Assembly (NCBI GenBank): GCA_020351025.1
Contig: CP070728.1
Coordinates: forward strand, 2,028,104 to 2,062,723
DNA length: 34,620 nt
From: Planctomycetota bacterium
GTDB taxonomy: Bacteria > Planctomycetota > Phycisphaerae > Sedimentisphaerales > Anaerobacaceae
Reading direction: 5' to 3'
The notes below the pieces were generated by a model, which saw only the letters and a program-made list of their open reading frames with translations, searched no databases and was not told the origin of the DNA. This document shows, one piece after another, positions 12,148 to 21,473 of this stretch. The translations under genes were made by a program, and so were the position numbers. Within the stretch, counting starts at the first letter, position 1, and each line of letters starts with the position of its first letter.

Positions 12148-13170
12148 ATGGCAAAAACGCATAAACCAAAAAATTGGCAGCAGCTGCCCGACGAAGAAAT
12201 TCTGCAAATGAGGATTCGAGACCTAAACGTACAGATCCAAGGCTCGGCCCTCGAGCCACTTATACAAAGGATTTACGATGAACTAGATAGCAAGGGTATT
12301 TCCTTTCACCCGCCATGTTATCTCTCCGACGAGTGGCTCTGCCCTGACAAACTTCCAATTATAGGCATCCCTTTTTGTCTGGCACATCCACGTCTCAAGA
12401 ACATCGAGCAGAAAATAATGCTTGATGTTGAAGGTGGAAGCGAAAAATCGTTTATGAAACTCCTCCGTCACGAATGCGGTCATGCCTTGAACTACGCATA
12501 CCAGCTCTACAGAAGAACACGATGGCGAGAGCTGTTCGGACCTTTCTCTGCAAGGTATTCGGACTCTTATTACTTCCAGCCATACTCCAGACGCTTTGTC
12601 ATTCACTTAGATGGCAATTATGCACAGGCCCATCCGGATGAAGACTTTGCCGAAACGTTCGCCGTCTGGCTTACTCCGGATAGCAAGTGGGAACAAAAGT
12701 ACCGCGGTTGGCCGGTTATCAAAAAACTCCTCTATGTTGACCAGCTAATGAGCAAAATCCGAAACCAAAAGCCGCTCGCTACCGCTCGACAGACACCTCC
12801 ATGGTCAGCCTCGCGAATGACTTCAACCCTCGCCGCACACTATCAACGCAAACGAAGAGTTCTTGGAAGTGAATTCCAAGGATTCTATGACGACAGCCTA
12901 AAAAACCTCTTCACCACAAGGCATAGCGATTCACCTTTTAAAGCCTCAAAGCTCCTGCGCCGTCACCGGCGTCAGATTATTGACAATCTCTCAAGGTGGA
13001 CCGGACACCGAAAGTTCGACATCCATCAGCTCGTGAATAAATTCATTCAGCGATGTGATGCACTTGAGCTGTACGCCAGAACCACCGAGCCGGAAAATGT
13101 CATAGGGGTAACGGCTCTGCTCACCGCTATTGCAAGTAATACGCTGAGGATTACAAAGGATAAACGTTAA
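12148..13170 (+). CDS. Putative zinc metallopeptidase (zinc-binding metallopeptidase, Pfam 15887-like)
   Basis: A 340-residue cytosolic protein without signal peptide. The zinc motif is H-E-C-G-H (His108, Glu109, His112), a form of HExxH. A third ligand is likely Glu169 in D-E-D-F-A-E-T-F-A-V-W. Both fit the uncharacterised family named 'putative zinc-binding metallopeptidase'. Residues beyond about 190 form a basic, helical region. The stop codon overlaps the ATG of the ATP-grasp gene by one base, so the two are translationally coupled and probably act together. The substrate is unknown; with a peptide-ligase-like partner, a small peptide or peptide-modified compound is a reasonable guess. 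Confidence 0.78.
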   Translation: MAKTHKPKNWQQLPDEEILQMRIRDLNVQIQGSALEPLIQRIYDELDSKGISFHPPCYLSDEWLCPDKLPIIGIPFCLAHPRLKNIEQKIMLDVEGGSEKSFMKLLRHECGHALNYAYQLYRRTRWRELFGPFSARYSDSYYFQPYSRRFVIHLDGNYAQAHPDEDFAETFAVWLTPDSKWEQKYRGWPVIKKLLYVDQLMSKIRNQKPLATARQTPPWSASRMTSTLAAHYQRKRRVLGSEFQGFYDDSLKNLFTTRHSDSPFKASKLLRRHRRQIIDNLSRWTGHRKFDIHQLVNKFIQRCDALELYARTTEPENVIGVTALLTAIASNTLRITKDKR

Positions 13171-14186
13171 TGAAGCGCCGATTAAATATCACTGTTCTGG
13201 TCGATACAACGGCCATACCTTCAAACGACCCTGAGTTCAAGGCCGCTCCAAAAGTCCCCACCACTGAACACCACGTCATCGGTTCTTTACGCACATTACA
13301 GCACAAGGTATCAGTCCTCGGTGCAGCAAACGACATCGGAACAATCATAAACTCACTCAAAGAACTAAAGCCTGATATCGTTTTCAATCTGACCGAGCAA
13401 TTCGCTGGCGACCGGCAGATGGACAAAAATATTACTGCGCTCCTTGAATTAACAGACATACCTTTCACCGGCTCCGGTCCCACAGGTCTGATGCTGTGTC
13501 GCGACAAGCGTCTCTGCAAACAACTGCTATCTCTGCACAAAATTCGCGTCCCGGGCTTCATCTACCTACCACGTGACCATTTAGTCGTTATCCCCAAAAA
13601 ACTCCGCTATCCCCTCGTGGTCAAACCCGCATTCGAAGACAGCTCTGAAGGCATCTCAAACGCTTCACTTGTTGCAAATGAAACTGCCCTGAGAGACCGA
13701 GCCAAATTTGTCCACGAACGATGGCAACAAGCTGCCATTGCCGAAGAATACATCGAAGGACGAGAACTTTACATCAGTATCCTCGGCAACAAAAGACTGG
13801 TTGTCTTTCCAATCCGCGAATGTCTGTTCGACTTTAACACAAATGAAGGCCCACAACTTGCCACCTACCGCGTAAAATGGAACGAAGAATTTCGCAAGAA
13901 ATGGAATATTGAATTCGGGTTCGCCAAGCTTGAACCATCAATACTTAGGAACATCGAGCGTACCTGCAAAAGGGTTTATCGCGTTCTGCAGATTAGGGAC
14001 TACGGCCGAATAGACCTCAGACTTACGCCAGAAAATAAGCTTGTAATTCTCGAAGCTAATCCCAACCCCGATATCGCTTATGGGGAAGATGTAGCAGAAG
14101 CGGCCGAAAAGGCTGGTATCTCTTATGAGGAGCTTATTGAACGTATCCTCTTTATCGCCCTGCGAAGATATGACCGATCCTTCTAA
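13170..14186 (+). CDS. ATP-grasp ligase related to D-alanine-D-alanine ligase
   Basis: A 338-residue ATP-grasp enzyme. Visible parts are F-T-G-S-G-P-T-G (99-106), the ATP-binding strand P-L-V-V-K-P-A-F-E-D-S-S-E-G-I (148-162), the E-E-Y-I-E-G-R-E-L segment, and the metal-binding end R-I-D-L-R-L ... I-L-E-A-N-P-N-P-D-I. The order matches D-Ala-D-Ala ligase, which joins two amino acids through an acyl phosphate. The N-terminal substrate domain differs (V-F-N-L-T-E-Q-F-A-G in place of the usual H-G-x-x-G-E-D-G), so cell-wall D-Ala-D-Ala may not be the product. It overlaps the metallopeptidase by one base, and the DUF362 gene follows 29 bases later. Confidence 0.8.
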   Translation: MKRRLNITVLVDTTAIPSNDPEFKAAPKVPTTEHHVIGSLRTLQHKVSVLGAANDIGTIINSLKELKPDIVFNLTEQFAGDRQMDKNITALLELTDIPFTGSGPTGLMLCRDKRLCKQLLSLHKIRVPGFIYLPRDHLVVIPKKLRYPLVVKPAFEDSSEGISNASLVANETALRDRAKFVHERWQQAAIAEEYIEGRELYISILGNKRLVVFPIRECLFDFNTNEGPQLATYRVKWNEEFRKKWNIEFGFAKLEPSILRNIERTCKRVYRVLQIRDYGRIDLRLTPENKLVILEANPNPDIAYGEDVAEAAEKAGISYEELIERILFIALRRYDRSF

Positions 14187-14215
14187 AAAACACATTCTAA
14201 CGACGAAAGTAAAAT

Positions 14216-15307
14216 ATGAGTTCGAAAGTATATTTCATCAAAGCATCAGTAAGCGACGGCGAGCAATTGCTCTCCGACAAAGCCGTTAAATTATTTAATG
14301 CCGCCGGATTTGAAAACTGCTTCACTGAAAATGATTTCACTGCTGTTAAGGTCCACGTCGGAGAAGCAGGTAACACCACATATATAAAGGCCCCTTATAT
14401 TAAAGGTCTTGTCGAAAAACTGCTCTCACTAAAAACAAAACCGTTCTTGACCGACACGAATGCGTTATATTCAGGCCTAAGGCACAACGCTATCGACCAT
14501 CATATTACCGCCGCCGAGCACGGCTTCTCTTTAGAAACCTTAGGAATACCATTCATTGTCCCCGATGGAATTAACGGGACCGCTGAGGCAGCAGTGCAGG
14601 TCAACGGCCAGATTAACAAAGAAGTTTTCATAGCCTATGGTATCGCAAAATGCCAGTCTATCCTCTCGATAGCTCACTTCACCGGCCATATGGCTACCTG
14701 CGCAGCGGCCACATTAAAAACGCTCGGCATGGGCTGCGCAAGCCAGAAAGGAAAAATGCTCCAGCACGCTGCCCTCACACTTACCATTGGCGACAATTGC
14801 AAACGCTGTGGCGAATGTTTTAAGCACTGCCCCGCCGATGCTATTACCATCGATGATGTCAAAGCTCACATCAACCAGGAAAAATGCATTAGCTGTGCAG
14901 AATGTTTGGCCGTCTGCAGATTCTCCGTCGTACAATACAACTGGGGCGAGGAGGACGAAACACTACAAAAAAGCATGGCAGAACACGCCCTCGGCGTACT
15001 CAAAGGAAAAACGCATAAAGCCTCATTTTTTAATTACCTCATCTCCATCACAAAAGACTGCGACTGTTTTGACACGCCTGACATGCCAACAGTCGTCGAT
15101 GATATCGGCATTGTTGCATCGACAGACCCGGTGGCCGTAGATAAAGCAGCTATTGATTTGGTCGAAGAGAAAGCCGGGAAAAAACTGCCTCAACTGGTCA
15201 AGTACGAAAAGATAAAGCCACAATACCAGCTCGAACATGCCCAGCGTATCGGCCTCGGCACTATCAATTACCAGCTTAAAGAAGTTAAATACAAGCAAAC
15301 AAAGTGA
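14216..15307 (+). CDS. DUF362 domain protein with two 4Fe-4S clusters
   Basis: A 363-residue iron-sulfur protein. Residues 1-190 and the C-terminal part form the DUF362 domain, seen in K-V-H-V-G-E-A-G-N-T-T-Y, D-T-N-A-L-Y and the late V-A-S-T-D-P-V-A-V-D segment. Inserted at about 195-245 is a bacterial ferredoxin with two Cx2Cx2Cx3C sets: C-K-R-C-G-E-C-F-K-H-C-P and C-I-S-C-A-E-C-L-A-V-C. These should hold two 4Fe-4S clusters for electron transfer. Such proteins are common in anaerobes; their partner is unknown. It may be cotranscribed with the two genes before it. Confidence 0.88.
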   Translation: MSSKVYFIKASVSDGEQLLSDKAVKLFNAAGFENCFTENDFTAVKVHVGEAGNTTYIKAPYIKGLVEKLLSLKTKPFLTDTNALYSGLRHNAIDHHITAAEHGFSLETLGIPFIVPDGINGTAEAAVQVNGQINKEVFIAYGIAKCQSILSIAHFTGHMATCAAATLKTLGMGCASQKGKMLQHAALTLTIGDNCKRCGECFKHCPADAITIDDVKAHINQEKCISCAECLAVCRFSVVQYNWGEEDETLQKSMAEHALGVLKGKTHKASFFNYLISITKDCDCFDTPDMPTVVDDIGIVASTDPVAVDKAAIDLVEEKAGKKLPQLVKYEKIKPQYQLEHAQRIGLGTINYQLKEVKYKQTK

Positions 15308-16351: not shown

Positions 16352-17146
16352 TTACCTGACATCTTGACCGGCAACAGCCAGAACTAATGCAAAGACTTTC
16401 GAAGCACCGGCCTGTTTCAATGTCTTTGCACACTCATTCAACGTCGCACCGGTCGTCTTTATATCATCTACAAGACAAATATTTCTGCCAGCTAACTTAT
16501 GTCCCCTCCGTACACCAAAAGCACCCTTAACATTCCTCGCTCGTGCTGCAGCACTTGCCATTAAAGGCTGCGATTTCGTCCTCCGAATCCTAACAAGCTC
16601 CGTATTTATCTTACCTGCCGAATGCTTTAACTTCTTAGCAACAATCAGTGACTGATTATAACCGCGCAATAACCGCCTCGACCAGTGAAGTGGAACAGGA
16701 ACAAAAATCTCTATTTCATTTATAAAACCGCTCCCCTCAAATGCTGAATTTGCCAAATGTCCCAGAACTTTATCCAACTCCGTCCCGCCTCTCTTAAAGG
16801 AAAGTATCATTCTTTGTAGCGCATCCTTATAAACTCCGCTTCGTCCTATCCCGTCAAAATAAATCTCCTTCCCCTGACAATCCGGACATGCCCCTTCAAG
16901 CAAACCGAATCTACTAACATCTCTCCCGCACCGCCGGCAATAATCACCCCCGGTACAACTTAGAAGTTCATCCCAGCAATGGTTACATAAATTGTCTTCC
17001 TCACTAATACTCGCTCCGCAATTGATACAAACCGCAGGCCACAGAAGCTGCTTCAACCCCTGAAAACCAATTCCAGTTAACTCTTTAAGCTTCCGCGAAT
17101 CCACACCCCTGATTTTATGAAGTTTATCACGTAAGATAAATATCAA
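16352..17146 (-). CDS. comF: ComF family phosphoribosyltransferase-like protein
   Basis: ComF proteins help take up or process DNA in competent bacteria, and elsewhere their role is unclear. The 264 residues hold eight cysteines as four CxxC pairs: 40/43, 54/57, 70/73 and 87/90, a double zinc ribbon. A phosphoribosyltransferase-like domain follows, with F-V-P-V-P-L-H-W, R-G-Y-N-Q-S and the PRPP loop I-C-L-V-D-D-I-K-T-T-G-A-T-L. The reading frame begins with TTG at 17146, overlapping the TGA of the gene before it as TTGA. No ATG lies before residue 112, so a TTG or nearby GTG start is required. It is the last gene of the riboswitch-led cluster. Confidence 0.87.
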   Translation of the reverse strand: MIFILRDKLHKIRGVDSRKLKELTGIGFQGLKQLLWPAVCINCGASISEEDNLCNHCWDELLSCTGGDYCRRCGRDVSRFGLLEGACPDCQGKEIYFDGIGRSGVYKDALQRMILSFKRGGTELDKVLGHLANSAFEGSGFINEIEIFVPVPLHWSRRLLRGYNQSLIVAKKLKHSAGKINTELVRIRRTKSQPLMASAAARARNVKGAFGVRRGHKLAGRNICLVDDIKTTGATLNECAKTLKQAGASKVFALVLAVAGQDVR

Positions 17147-17823
17147 TTTTCAACTGCTATCAGGTCGCAATAACAAAAACGCTTCTCCCTAAAAACAATT
17201 TCACCCTTCTTATGTAATACCCTCTTGTCGAACATAGGCCCATCATACACAAACGAATGAAATTCCCCATTCTCACCACACCGGTCAACACCAGCAGGAA
17301 GTTCTGATAAAAACCGCTCATCAAAGCTCCTGCCGGCAAATTTCCTGTCAAGCACATTACAGTCAACGCTTGTAACAACCGCCCTGTACCCCAGTTCTAT
17401 AAATTTATCGACAGCTTCACTCGTATCAGTCCCCCATATAGGAAATACCCCCTTCATGTCAATCTTCGACAGATTCTCCTCTCGGTATTTCCTTACATCC
17501 TCTAAAAAAATATCTCCGAAAACTACCGATGAAACCCCTACTCTCTGATACTTTTCCAGTACCTCTCGCATCCTCGATTCATATTCCTCATCAGTTGCAC
17601 CCTTTGAAATGAACACCTTCTCAAGAAATAATCCGAGCGACTCCGCCTGCCGCTCAATCAAAACACGATGAACTCCGTGCATACTCACTCTGTCATAGTC
17701 CTGCACTACAGTCGTTAATAAAGCTGCCACCTCATATTCCCCCATCCCCTGAAGCTCATCAAGTGCTAAAACACTGTCTTTACCTCCACTCCACGCAACC
17801 AACACTTTCTCCCGCTTAGCCAT
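17143..17823 (-). CDS. DUF71/Dph6-type adenine nucleotide alpha hydrolase
   Basis: A 226-residue ATP-pyrophosphatase-fold enzyme of the DUF71/COG2102 family. The PP-loop is S-G-G-K-D-S (12-17), and the family signature G-E-N-G-E-F-H-S-F lies at 183-191. Archaeal and eukaryotic members amidate diphthine; bacteria lack diphthamide, and as I recall a bacterial subgroup was predicted to act in vitamin B12 salvage. That fits this position exactly: it is the fourth gene behind a cobalamin riboswitch. It begins 6 bases after the prepilin-like gene and overlaps comF, so all are likely in one transcript. The reaction (amide formation on a corrinoid side chain or another acid) is inferred. Confidence 0.85.
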   Translation of the reverse strand: MAKREKVLVAWSGGKDSVLALDELQGMGEYEVAALLTTVVQDYDRVSMHGVHRVLIERQAESLGLFLEKVFISKGATDEEYESRMREVLEKYQRVGVSSVVFGDIFLEDVRKYREENLSKIDMKGVFPIWGTDTSEAVDKFIELGYRAVVTSVDCNVLDRKFAGRSFDERFLSELPAGVDRCGENGEFHSFVYDGPMFDKRVLHKKGEIVFREKRFCYCDLIAVEN

Positions 17824-17829
17824 CCCTCG

Positions 17830-18633
17830 TTAGTCTAAATCAAAAAGTGAGTTATCCAGCGGCTCAAACCACCCCAAATCCATCCGGTCGAAACCCTCAT
17901 CGTACGCCTTTGTTCCCTCGCAGTCGGCCTTCTCACGCCAACTGCAATGTCCATCAGACCAGCCAATATTTACGCCTCCGCGGTGGCGAAAATGAATGCT
18001 CGGAAGGGGGTGAAATCCCATCACTCGACCATCATATACCCAAAAATACGGCTCAGCGAATGAATATTCTATGAGTTTATCATCCTGATTAAAACCCGTG
18101 TCGGCAAACATCAGTGTCTCATAAGGTTTCGATATCGTAGTAATACGAGCTGTTCTGCCGTACCTGTCCTTAAAATCAAGCCCACTCAGCCAAAGACAAC
18201 TACCAAGATATGTCATATTATAGCCGTAACCACCACAGCCTTTCTCAAAGCTGTCCTTCCATTTTTGGCCCCTCGTAAATTTTACCTTCGCCGGGCATTC
18301 CTTGACCTGCCCACCAGCTAAATAACCAGCCAGTGGACCTCTGCACGGGTCAAAAGCTTCGTCTTTGTCGTCCCTTACACCATGCCAGCGTTCGTAACCC
18401 CCAGCGCCGTCCCATATATCGCTCGCAGCAGGAACACAAAAACCATCATGCTCGTCACTATACCCCATATTCGCCAAGACAAGCTGACGAAGATTTGACC
18501 TGCAAACCGCAATTTGGGCTCCCGACCTCGCTGTAACCAAAGCAGGCACCGATACCGCCATAAGCAAACCAATCGTGGAAATTACTACGAGAAGTTCAAC
18601 CATACTAAATGCTTTTGACTTTTTAGCATCCAT
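17830..18633 (-). CDS. Prepilin-like protein with N-terminal methylation motif
   Basis: I place the start at the ATG at 18633, giving 267 residues with a short basic leader, M-D-A-K-K-S-K-A, followed by F-S-M-V-E-L-L-V-V-I. A TTG start at 18657 would overlap the previous gene but would make an untypically long leader. The leader and helix are the class 3 (prepilin) signal, but the residue before the cleavage point is Ala in place of the usual Gly. The rest resembles the planctomycete DUF1559-like pseudopilins, with G-W-S-D-G-H-C-S-W near the end. These are exported and held by the N-terminal helix. Its position in the B12-controlled cluster is unexplained; it could build a surface fibre or serve as a carrier. 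Confidence 0.8.
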   Translation of the reverse strand: MDAKKSKAFSMVELLVVISTIGLLMAVSVPALVTARSGAQIAVCRSNLRQLVLANMGYSDEHDGFCVPAASDIWDGAGGYERWHGVRDDKDEAFDPCRGPLAGYLAGGQVKECPAKVKFTRGQKWKDSFEKGCGGYGYNMTYLGSCLWLSGLDFKDRYGRTARITTISKPYETLMFADTGFNQDDKLIEYSFAEPYFWVYDGRVMGFHPLPSIHFRHRGGVNIGWSDGHCSWREKADCEGTKAYDEGFDRMDLGWFEPLDNSLFDLD

Positions 18634-18653
18634 AAAATACCCGCAAAAATATT

Positions 18654-19745
18654 TCAATTACGCCAGCTTTCTTTACCAAGCCATTGCTTAGTAAACTCAC
18701 AAAGGTCAAATTCATCAATCACTAAATCCCTCGGTTCCGCCAAATCACTCCTGCTTATCCAATCACCGCTGCCAAAATGATTCCGCCATGCTGACCCAAA
18801 CAGCGCAAAATCAAACATATCAACTACACCATCCAGATTGATATCCGCAGAATATTTTTGCTCTCGGAGAACACCTACAGCCTCTAAATCAAGACCGCCC
18901 GAACCGAATGTCATCCAGGCGTCATATATCGGGTGGTTAACATCAAAGTTATCCCAACTTGGCCAGCTATTAGGGTCAATATGCTTAACAGCTTCATCTT
19001 TAAAATCACCGCTGCCGGGTATATCAACTATCCTAACGTAATTTATATTGTTGATATCGACTACTCCTGAGACAACACACGGGTCATCGGCAATGTCACC
19101 CAAATCAAACAGCGTACCGGTACACACACCTGCGGCATTAGGGTGTTTGCCAACAAGCCTGAAAACATCGCTAATCTCAAGAGTCCCATATGAACCAACA
19201 GGCCCTGGCGTCAATGATACTGCCGGAAACCTCACAAAATTACTGCCGTCCGAAGACACTTCCACATATCCCAACTCCGCAAACATTTCACCTGCAACCG
19301 AGCCGCCGGATGTGTCATAATCGCTAATAAAACCATTCTCGAAAATGGCAAAATCATAGCCTGCTCTGTCACGAATCGTCTCGCTAAACGATAAAGTTAT
19401 CCATCCCGGCTCGCAGCCATCGTTTATGGCATTAACGTCCAAATCACCCAGGCTGACAATATCAGTATAATCTCCCATAGCTGGACCTAAGGCCTTGTTC
19501 GGGTCTGACCATTGGCTGTCTACTCCGGGTGCAGGACTATAGCTGACTACGCCTATCGCCCAGCCCTGAAATATCGGATTCACTATCGCATTCGCGTCAC
19601 ACGGGTCAGCGTGACGCCAATGGTCTCCGATATATCCGTTAACTCCCGCTTCTGTATAAGGCCCAGCCATGCTAACCGACCGCATGTTAATACAAACCGT
19701 AAAAACCAGATAAACTATTAACCTTTCTTTCCCAGCCACCACCAT
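18654..19745 (-). CDS. Secreted surface protein with dockerin-like C-terminus
   Basis: A 363-residue exported protein. The signal peptide spans about residues 1-27, ending S-M-A. The main domain (30-295) has strand-rich segments: G-Y-D-F-A-I-F-E-N-G-F, then Y-V-E-V-S-S-D-G-S-N-F-V-R-F-P, and V-R-I-V-D-I-P-G-S-G-D-F. I have seen that pattern in uncharacterised surface proteins of Bacteroidetes and planctomycetes, some beside TonB-dependent B12 receptors; this is recollection, not a search. Residues 305-360 look like a pair of dockerin repeats (D-I-N-L-D-G-V-V-D-M-F-D and a second I-D-E-F-D-L-C-E-F). GAGGGGAG lies just ahead of ATG/GTG/GTG, so the exact start could be one or two codons later. 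It follows the DUF4465 gene by 65 bases. Confidence 0.7.
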   Translation of the reverse strand: MVVAGKERLIVYLVFTVCINMRSVSMAGPYTEAGVNGYIGDHWRHADPCDANAIVNPIFQGWAIGVVSYSPAPGVDSQWSDPNKALGPAMGDYTDIVSLGDLDVNAINDGCEPGWITLSFSETIRDRAGYDFAIFENGFISDYDTSGGSVAGEMFAELGYVEVSSDGSNFVRFPAVSLTPGPVGSYGTLEISDVFRLVGKHPNAAGVCTGTLFDLGDIADDPCVVSGVVDINNINYVRIVDIPGSGDFKDEAVKHIDPNSWPSWDNFDVNHPIYDAWMTFGSGGLDLEAVGVLREQKYSADINLDGVVDMFDFALFGSAWRNHFGSGDWISRSDLAEPRDLVIDEFDLCEFTKQWLGKESWRN

Positions 19746-19810
19746 TCTCCCCTCTTATAAGCGCCCCAATGGTTGCAAACGCACCGAAGCGTCTAAGATA
19801 AAAATTCATA

Positions 19811-20605
19811 TCAAATAGCAGCGACTCTTGCGGTCTTCCTGCCTCTCAGAAACAGGCCACCTAAGCCCAACATTAACAAAGTAGCAGGCTCAGGTACAAC
19901 CGTATCCGCCGCAAAATACGCCGGTGTATTCATACCAAATTCACCAACATCGCTCGAGGACAGTGTAAACTCCAAACTCTTAACCACACCCAGCGATGTC
20001 AAATCAATACTCTGCCATGTATCTACAATGTAATCGAGCTCGTTGTCCGCAAAGCGGTAATCAGCCAGATAAAAAACAACACTATCGGTAACATCACCAC
20101 CGACATCTTTGCCCGTAATCGTCACTAAAAACCAGTCCTCGTCATCTCCACTCGCACCGCCAAACTTCTTAGCGTAGGCATCTCCGTAAAGCATCGAATA
20201 ATACGCATAGTTATTGTTCGTGACGTATAAACTATCGAGAGCGCCCGCCGTATCCAGCGTAACAGTAGGCGGCTCGGCCCAGCCGACATAGCCAATGGCA
20301 TAATTACTCGAACCGCCCTGACCAGCGCCGACTATAGCATTATATTGACTATCCATCCCGCTTGTTGTCGTGTCCGTTATATTCGAGTAAGCAAAACCGT
20401 CCCACGAACCAAACGTGGAATCATAATTATTGTGATAGTAGGCGCTGCCGCTTTGGAAACCGCCCGACTCATCTGAACCATTCCAGTAAGACTCTGGCCC
20501 AAGCGACAAATCCTCAAAATCACTCACTATTGCAGCACACGCTGAAGCTGCCATCGCAAAAAAAATGATAGTAAAAACCAAATGCATCACTCTCCCCGAA
20601 GCCAT
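19811..20605 (-). CDS. DUF4465 domain protein with PEP-CTERM anchor (possible B12-binding surface protein)
   Basis: From the ATG at 20605 (AGGAG about 8 bases ahead) the protein is 264 residues. A longer frame back to a TTG at 20623 lacks a ribosome site. Residues 1-24 are a signal peptide. Residues 25-235 match DUF4465: a start of D-F-E-D-L-S-L, S-Y-W-N-G-S-D-E-S-G-G-F, then F-G-S-W-D-G-F-A-Y-S-N, N-Y-A-I-G-Y-V-G, and W-F-L-V-T-I-T-G. The C-terminus (237-264) is a PEP-CTERM tag: V-P-E-P, a hydrophobic helix, then R-G-R-K. It is cut and anchored by an exosortase. DUF4465 is, as I recall, the domain of the Bacteroides B12-binding protein BtuH. As the first gene behind a cobalamin riboswitch, a corrinoid-binding role is likely. 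No TonB receptor is in the window. Confidence 0.88.
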   Translation of the reverse strand: MASGRVMHLVFTIIFFAMAASACAAIVSDFEDLSLGPESYWNGSDESGGFQSGSAYYHNNYDSTFGSWDGFAYSNITDTTTSGMDSQYNAIVGAGQGGSSNYAIGYVGWAEPPTVTLDTAGALDSLYVTNNNYAYYSMLYGDAYAKKFGGASGDDEDWFLVTITGKDVGGDVTDSVVFYLADYRFADNELDYIVDTWQSIDLTSLGVVKSLEFTLSSSDVGEFGMNTPAYFAADTVVPEPATLLMLGLGGLFLRGRKTARVAAI

Positions 20606-20831
20606 AATTCCGTCTCCTCTCAATCCGAAATATCAAAACTCCCTTTTTCAAATCTTACCCTTCTTTCTCCCTCGCTCACGACACACCAAAAAACCTTAAG
20701 ACACAAAGTAAAAAAATAACGAATAAACAGAATAGAACTCCACAATTTTGAATTTTTAGTTTTAAGCTTTCAGTTTCTTTGGCCTCCTTTCGCGCTGTTC
20801 GGCCCCTCTTGTGAGGGCTCTAAGACAAAAC

Positions 20832-20871
20832 AATAAAAAAGACCGCCATTCCCGCGAAAGGAACGGCGGCC
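20832..20871 (-). terminator. Rho-independent terminator downstream of the cobalamin aptamer
   Basis: Read on the minus strand, GGCCGCCGTTCC pairs with GGAATGGCGGTC around a short loop and is followed at once by TTTTTT ATT. The stem is 12 base pairs with one or two G-T pairs, GC-rich and strong. It lies about 200 bases after the aptamer and 230 before the DUF4465 start, so it is placed to stop transcription of the cluster when B12 is present. Confidence 0.88.
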
Positions 20872-21073
20872 TAAATCACCAACATCTCCACACTCCAACC
20901 CAGCAATTGCGAAGCAATCACAGCGGTCTTCTCAAGCTGGATAGTCGCACTCTGTCCCTAATCGCGAGAACACCTCAGCTCCCATCTTGCTACTTTTTCC
21001 CACAACCAAAACGCACATCTTTTGGGCGCTTGGCTACCAGCAAAATGGGACCCGCTATATGCCAACCAACCAC

Positions 21074-21342
21074 AGGCAGGTTTTCTGACTTGCGTCTTAC
21101 CTCAAGACTCCTTCCCATCCGCCGAGCCTTATTTTGCATCACATTGCAAAATCAAAAGCCTATTGCGAACAGTGGAGAGTGGCTCCCAAACTCCCCTCCT
21201 TGTGTTTGGAAGCCCATACTATGTCTCTCGGATTTCCAAGCTTTCTCGGAACAGACGCTCACAGCGGCGCGACCGTCGCGGACTTTAAAACCGCGTTCCC
21301 GTTTGACTATCCCATAGCAACACAATGCCTTGGGACCTGCAG
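21074..21342 (-). ncRNA. Cobalamin riboswitch
   Basis: The minus strand shows the conserved parts in order. The closing arm GCAGGT (21340-21335) pairs with ACCTGC (21081-21076). Then come A-A-A-C-G-G-G-A-A-C and CGCGGT (about 21303-21289), CCGCGACGGTCGCGCCGCTG (about 21282-21263), and a long peripheral arm with CCACTG and G-G-G-A-A-G-G. It ends with the B12-box end AAGTCAGAAAACCTGCC. These match the adenosylcobalamin riboswitch core. The peripheral region is long, and there is more than one CCACTC/CCACTG segment. It controls the minus-strand genes starting with the DUF4465 protein; binding would favour the terminator at 20832-20871. Confidence 0.9.
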
Positions 21343-21473
21343 TTAGGCTATATACTTTTCAAAGAACATTCTATTTGCCTTCTATCACAGCACGGAATTG
21401 CCTTCAAGCAAAAAAATAAAATTTTTTACTATCGTTAGAAGCTTTTCTCCCTAAGTTCCCTTTTCAACAGCTC

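Follow-up and report, generated by a model that had tools for sequence, protein, structure and literature searches.

The locus analyzed here raises the question of what a DUF4465 protein, a secreted dockerin-like protein, a prepilin-like protein, a DUF71 ATPase and a ComF-like protein have to do with one another, and with vitamin B12, behind a single cobalamin riboswitch in a planctomycete. The first-pass annotation had described a full cobalamin aptamer and a terminator ahead of these five minus-strand genes, and had proposed from them a new system for B12 capture and salvage. The arrangement is found as described in the window (the whole 34.6-kb stretch of DNA analyzed, part of a 2.27-Mb single-contig genome), with the following features:

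21058..21355, minus strand: cobalamin riboswitch aptamer, RF00174 (49.7 bits)
20840..20872, minus strand: intrinsic terminator between the aptamer and gene 1 (14-bp hairpin and T run)
19811..20605, minus strand: gene 1, DUF4465 protein, predicted BtuJ-like, with signal peptide and PEP-CTERM (PF14717, 185.8 bits)
18654..19745, minus strand: gene 2, secreted protein with predicted BtuH-like domain and dockerin-like tail (profile and model)
17830..18657, minus strand: gene 3, prepilin-like protein of a pseudopilin family of the PVC B12 regulon (profile, model and riboswitch recurrence)
17143..17823, minus strand: gene 4, DUF71/COG2102 PP-loop ATPase (PF01902, 135.5 bits; ENGEFH signature)
16352..17146, minus strand: gene 5, ComF-like phosphoribosyltransferase (comF match below cut-off)

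The riboswitch and its genomic context

Checked against the Rfam cobalamin model, the aptamer spans its full length (1-189), exceeds the gathering score of 31.5 bits and is the sole RF00174 match in the whole genome. The terminator that follows it, a GC-rich hairpin of -24.4 kcal/mol ahead of the T run, is likely to be the expression platform of the riboswitch. A hairpin of near-identical sequence occupies the same place in about 11 relatives, including most of those of Sedimentisphaerales type, and hairpins of different sequence do so in three further loci (L014, L020 and L051). Retention of the hairpin after the aptamer fits what is expected of a riboswitch that attenuates transcription, and switching is predicted on these grounds; any alternative pairing of the aptamer with the terminator was examined by folding alone, and we make no claim on it. 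Across related loci the hairpin is conserved in sequence, beyond its structure (CCGCCGTTCC...GGGAACGGCGG), which suggests additional pairing elsewhere. The five open reading frames that follow are separated by 7-66 nt or overlap by 4 nt, and are presumably co-transcribed. Beside them, at 12148-15307, lies a plus-strand run coding for an Mx-type zinc peptidase-like protein, a D-Ala-D-Ala-ligase-like ATP-grasp protein and a DUF362 ferredoxin-type protein.

The expectation that the gene set recurs behind planctomycete B12 riboswitches is borne out. Among DUF4465 loci drawn from a sample of 392 planctomycete genomes, all ten that have upstream sequence carry a cobalamin riboswitch there; one of them (L017) presents genes 1-5 in the same order, and in L014 genes 1-3 are followed by BtuF-BtuD-BtuC-like genes. 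In the genome under study, a single BtuF-BtuC-BtuD-like set is encoded near 699 kb, no part of it scoring above the curated cut-offs shown. The genome also encodes two matches above cut-off to the B12-dependent ribonucleotide reductase NrdJ, and B12-binding domains occur eight times, in proteins 434-503 aa long; no PF00593 match, the mark of a TonB barrel, and no CobS were found in it. The combination of NrdJ with one BtuCDF-like set, and of neither TonB barrel nor CobS, indicates that the organism probably imports cobamides, and probably depends on them for NrdJ at least. A B12-controlled capture operon is well supported as the general reading of the locus.

The secreted proteins

Gene 1 begins at the ATG at 20605, preceded by GAGGAG, with an in-frame TTG at 20623. 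Its identification as a DUF4465/PEP-CTERM protein stands, the PF14717 match lying far above its cut-off of 25 bits and the PEP-CTERM match reaching 25.2 bits (cut-off 20.7). It is the only DUF4465 gene in the genome, and its nearest relatives are solved DUF4465 proteins (PDB 9hmu, 9e-25). Residues Y133, N226, T227 and Y230 align with Y146, N241, T242 and Y245 of BtuJ1, which contact cobalamin (PMC12751083), and these positions, in the DE and HI loops, are almost invariant across 12 planctomycete sequences. Cobalamin binding was shown in 2026 for eight diverse DUF4465 members (PMC13398666), including one from Mucisphaera calidilacus, a planctomycete (PMC8882080). By its sequence, gene 1 is therefore a BtuJ-like predicted B12 binder. 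The link drawn earlier between DUF4465 and BtuH had to be given up: DUF4465 is the BtuJ family (PMC12751083, PMC13398666), and the BtuH-like protein of this locus is that of gene 2. With DUF4465 binding already published, planctomycete protein included, a B12 binder in gene 1 is no longer a new idea; what is upheld of the proposal is the surface capture operon with its regular pilin-like member. Two or more tandem DUF4465 copies occur in four B12 loci (L036, L046, L082 and L098).

Gene 2 had been described as dockerin-like, which is correct for its tail and overlooked its main domain. The Pfam search yields a weak dockerin match alone and the single sequence has no match in PDB; the BtuH identity surfaced only with a profile of 43 homologues and a structural model. 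The profile matches the H-domain of BtuG1 (8blw_B, E 9.6e-4), an extension homologous to BtuH2 according to its paper. With the model (pLDDT 89.9, pTM 0.88), Foldseek returns 8blw_B as the sole match below 0.001 (7e-7), and VIA ranks BtuH2 first (7biz_B, Z 12.0, 163 residues, 3.1 A) and BtuG1 second (8blw_B, Z 11.4). Residues 293-361 match dockerin (VIA Z 8.6; rmsd 1.3 over 60 aa with 2y3n). Taken together, these profile and structural matches define gene 2, as modeled, as a predicted BtuH-like domain (approximately residues 60-295) with a dockerin-like tail (approximately 293-361). The type of tail suggested at first is also upheld, both proteins bearing PEP-CTERM or dockerin tails and no evident lipidation signal. 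Binding of cobamide by the two would follow by analogy with the published activity of the DUF4465 and BtuH families.

A contig scan detected at least 542 relatives of gene 2 in genome contigs from many phyla, and a cobalamin riboswitch lies within 4 kb upstream on the same strand in 38 of 50 such loci, as mapped by contig coordinates and confirmed by direct scan in ten. These relatives adjoin DUF4465 and/or BtuFCD genes, and extend BtuH-like proteins, known mainly from gut Bacteroidetes, to the Planctomycetes, Verrucomicrobia, Desulfobacterota, Proteobacteria and Cyanobacteria.

Several variants were observed along the way. In L023 (8200-10356) the BtuH-like and DUF4465 domains of genes 2 and 1 are fused in a single 718-aa frame behind a cobalamin riboswitch, and on L040, a short contig attributed to the archaeon Methanosarcina spelaei, a BtuH-like domain (909-1574) occupies a frame open throughout the contig. 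The C-termini of gene 2 relatives (L066-L101) vary by clade, comprising PEP-CTERM, dockerin, GGCFI-like (Desulfobacterota) and FYR-ending (Verrucomicrobia) types. Finally, a Phycisphaerae-class locus (L152, 2994-4079) encodes a secreted protein with no Pfam match, its gene standing after the cobalamin riboswitch and ahead of the BtuH-like gene; similar frames occur in L154 and L155, and this protein is possibly a further surface binder.

A pilin-like family that follows B12 riboswitches

Gene 3, for which the ATG at 18633 is a likelier start than the TTG at 18657, falls just below the cut-off for the pilin N-methyl motif (21.0 against 21.2 bits). Its description as prepilin-like is nonetheless confirmed: it has a prepilin cleavage motif with Glu5 (AF/SMVELLVV, the slash marking the cut), its family profile matches solved pilins (geopilin, E 6.7e-13), and the model (pLDDT 88.9) presents a pilin N-helix, at residues 9-59, and a large head. 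All seven structural neighbors listed at Z 2 or above belong to the pilins or pseudopilins, PilA4 scoring best (Z 5.4); structure searches gave weak pilin matches only, and the head may yet have a known fold. The family shows 17 invariant columns in a comparison of 31 planctomycete, verrucomicrobial and related sequences; its conserved head is large, with abundant W, Y, H and G, and its C-terminus has the form GWFxPxDNSLFDL.

When the profile of gene 3 was searched alone against the 392 planctomycete genomes, 53 gave matches at the threshold of 1e-30 or better. Twenty loci, each from a different genome, were examined; in 16 of them a cobalamin riboswitch precedes the gene on its own strand, at distances of 153 to 2862 nt, where about 0.015 would be expected by chance if 1.5 riboswitches are assumed per 5-Mb genome. 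Three of the other loci are complete and have no riboswitch match, even below threshold, in a sensitive scan, and the fourth (L160) begins at a contig end. This association of gene 3 with riboswitches greatly exceeds chance and does not depend on genes 1 and 2. Gene 3 homologs also occur with BtuF, BtuC or BtuD (L146 and L160-L162), adjoin CobT in L164 and lie near BluB in L151. No report of a B12-controlled pilin emerged from our literature search; the pseudopilin belongs to the B12 regulon as a real and recurrent component, undescribed as far as searchable papers go.

The same link is seen from the side of gene 2, whose relatives have a pilin beside them in 40 of 48 PVC loci and in one of 32 others, a Sumerlaeota locus (Fisher p 1e-13, uncorrected for relatedness). 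Pirellulales-type loci carry DUF1559-type pilins instead, directly behind the riboswitch in L015, L016 and L018; in L016 (18295-18829), two divergent cobalamin riboswitches stand back to back, one leading to DUF4465 and the other to such a pilin. In seven verrucomicrobial loci (L043, L045, L056, L058, L061, L063 and L064) the default scan found no Rfam riboswitch, and a more sensitive one, applied to L058, L063 and L064, found only a sub-threshold AdoCbl-II, in L063.

The first-pass annotation had also envisaged a route different from TonB-dependent uptake. This holds for the present genome, in which no TonB barrel was found, and does not generalize: TonB barrels are encoded in 23 of 31 genomes carrying gene 3, so that the pseudopilin is no simple replacement of TonB, and a strict rule to that effect was rejected. 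In the Lentisphaerales locus L046, a riboswitch-led TonB gene lies beside the pilin operon. A Methylobacillus run of riboswitch, gene 2 and gene 1 is followed by a TonB receptor, the N-terminal part of which resembles B12 receptors, and the presence of a receptor there and, usually, of a pilin in the PVC loci suggests that the pilin may act at the outer-membrane step. Two cyanobacteria and one planctomycete carry BtuH-like genes with neither an adjoining pilin nor a TonB barrel.

Gene 3 is most likely a minor pilin or pseudopilin specific to the B12 system, and three alternatives are considered for its mechanism. It may be an export component, a type II-like pseudopilin assisting in secretion or display of the DUF4465 and BtuH-like proteins and having no direct part in B12 transport, a possible though doubtful reading that draws on its pilin fold and its frequent position after the genes for secreted binders. 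Other phyla, however, encode the same binders without gene 3, and in six loci (L151, L156 and L160-L163) gene 3 stands alone behind the riboswitch or with BtuFCD or BluB, with no recognized surface binder. Similarly tentative is the reading of gene 3 as an envelope B12 binder, anchored by its pilin-type N-terminus, that would pass cobamide to BtuF without forming a filament; its aromatic-, histidine- and glycine-rich head and the position of the gene, adjoining BtuF in L146, near it in L162 and after BtuD in L160 and L161, are in keeping with this, whereas the retention of the pilin Glu5 and helix and the failure of structure searches to recognize a B12-binding fold in the head speak against it. 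The third alternative, rather unlikely in our estimate, is a B12 pseudopilus of the PVC group, in which a pilin made only under B12 shortage would bind cobamide or cobamide-loaded surface proteins and transport them through the outer membrane, either alongside BtuB or in its place. If true, it would constitute a non-TonB route of outer-membrane uptake for a vitamin.

Proposed function and relation to known systems

Gene 4 is indeed the DUF71 ATPase announced, the only one in the genome. Its motif CGENGEFHSF, also found in L017, L029 and L094, has ENGEF/YH in place of the EGGE/DxE of Dph6, the replacement that defines the DUF71-B12 subgroup (PMC3541065), to which gene 4 is assigned by this signature. 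The salvage role proposed for it rests on that motif as its sole support, and the missing CobS, which is required for rebuilding a cobamide, implies that any cobamide rebuilding driven by DUF71 would be incomplete in this genome. Gene 5 is present as called, with a double zinc ribbon in addition to the sub-cut-off comF match; nine related loci (L017 and eight others), mostly lacking DUF71, have it after gene 3 or 4. As comF has no B12 link outside one order, we rejected it as a B12 gene, and it is probably a syntenic passenger. The notion that the capture genes alone matter, the pilin, DUF71 and comF being chance neighbors of a BtuJ/BtuH operon, might appeal to this behavior of comF and to the few compared loci in which DUF71 is found, but it is already disfavored for gene 3 by the riboswitch association. 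The B12-subgroup motif of DUF71, and the presence in L078 of a DUF71 gene alongside BtuFCD and a gene 2 relative, also speak against it, and we regard it as very improbable.

We consider it quite probable that the locus is a B12-repressed operon for cobamide capture, with BtuJ-like and BtuH-like surface binders, a pseudopilin and a DUF71-B12 protein. In such an operon, low cobamide would leave the aptamer empty, the terminator would be avoided and the five genes transcribed. The PEP-CTERM-sorted BtuJ-like and dockerin-tailed BtuH-like proteins would be displayed at the surface and bind cobamide, and the dedicated pseudopilin, with whatever partners it may have, would help to move it inward across the outer membrane or assemble surface machinery. 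The cobamide would then pass to BtuF-BtuCD, whose genes lie elsewhere in this genome and, in relatives, within the operon itself; DUF71-B12 might act on it in the cytoplasm, and NrdJ would use it.

Our literature search found no description of outer-membrane B12 import in TonB-poor PVC bacteria. The present finding supplies a gene set that is named and open to testing, together with a pseudopilin family tracking B12 riboswitches across the Planctomycetes and adjoining BtuH-like genes across the PVC group; this family is the new part of the operon, and hints at an undescribed role in B12 uptake. Given that Planctomycetes are suspected of drawing in large molecules along fibers from crateriform structures (PMC5394234), a pilin link would be directly relevant.

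The closest known systems are the Btu loci of Bacteroides thetaiotaomicron (BtuB, BtuG, BtuH, BtuJ, BtuK and BtuFCD; PMC8941943, PMC10404256, PMC12751083), which share B12 riboswitch control and the joint encoding of BtuJ (DUF4465) and BtuH types. The planctomycete operon, in contrast, has neither BtuB nor BtuG, in a genome with no detected TonB barrel; it bears PEP-CTERM and dockerin tails where Bacteroides uses lipidation, and contains a pseudopilin and DUF71, with BtuCDF elsewhere in the genome. Gene 1 shares with the DUF4465 B12-binding family (including Mucisphaera 'Pan' and Coraliomargarita D5EK51; PMC13398666) the domain and the binding-site residues Y, N, T and Y; the paper on that family makes no mention of PEP-CTERM, pilins or planctomycete riboswitch context. 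Gene 4 shares with the DUF71-B12 subgroup (PMC3541065) the ENGEFH signature and a placement with B12 uptake genes, and differs in lying behind a riboswitch with surface binders in a genome without CobS. Finally, gene 3 has the prepilin N-terminus of the planctomycete and verrucomicrobial H-X9-DG and DUF1559 prepilins, with weak matches to both; only the N-terminal part of its profile aligns with the DUF1559-type pilins of B12 loci, and it constitutes a family of its own, linked to B12 riboswitches.
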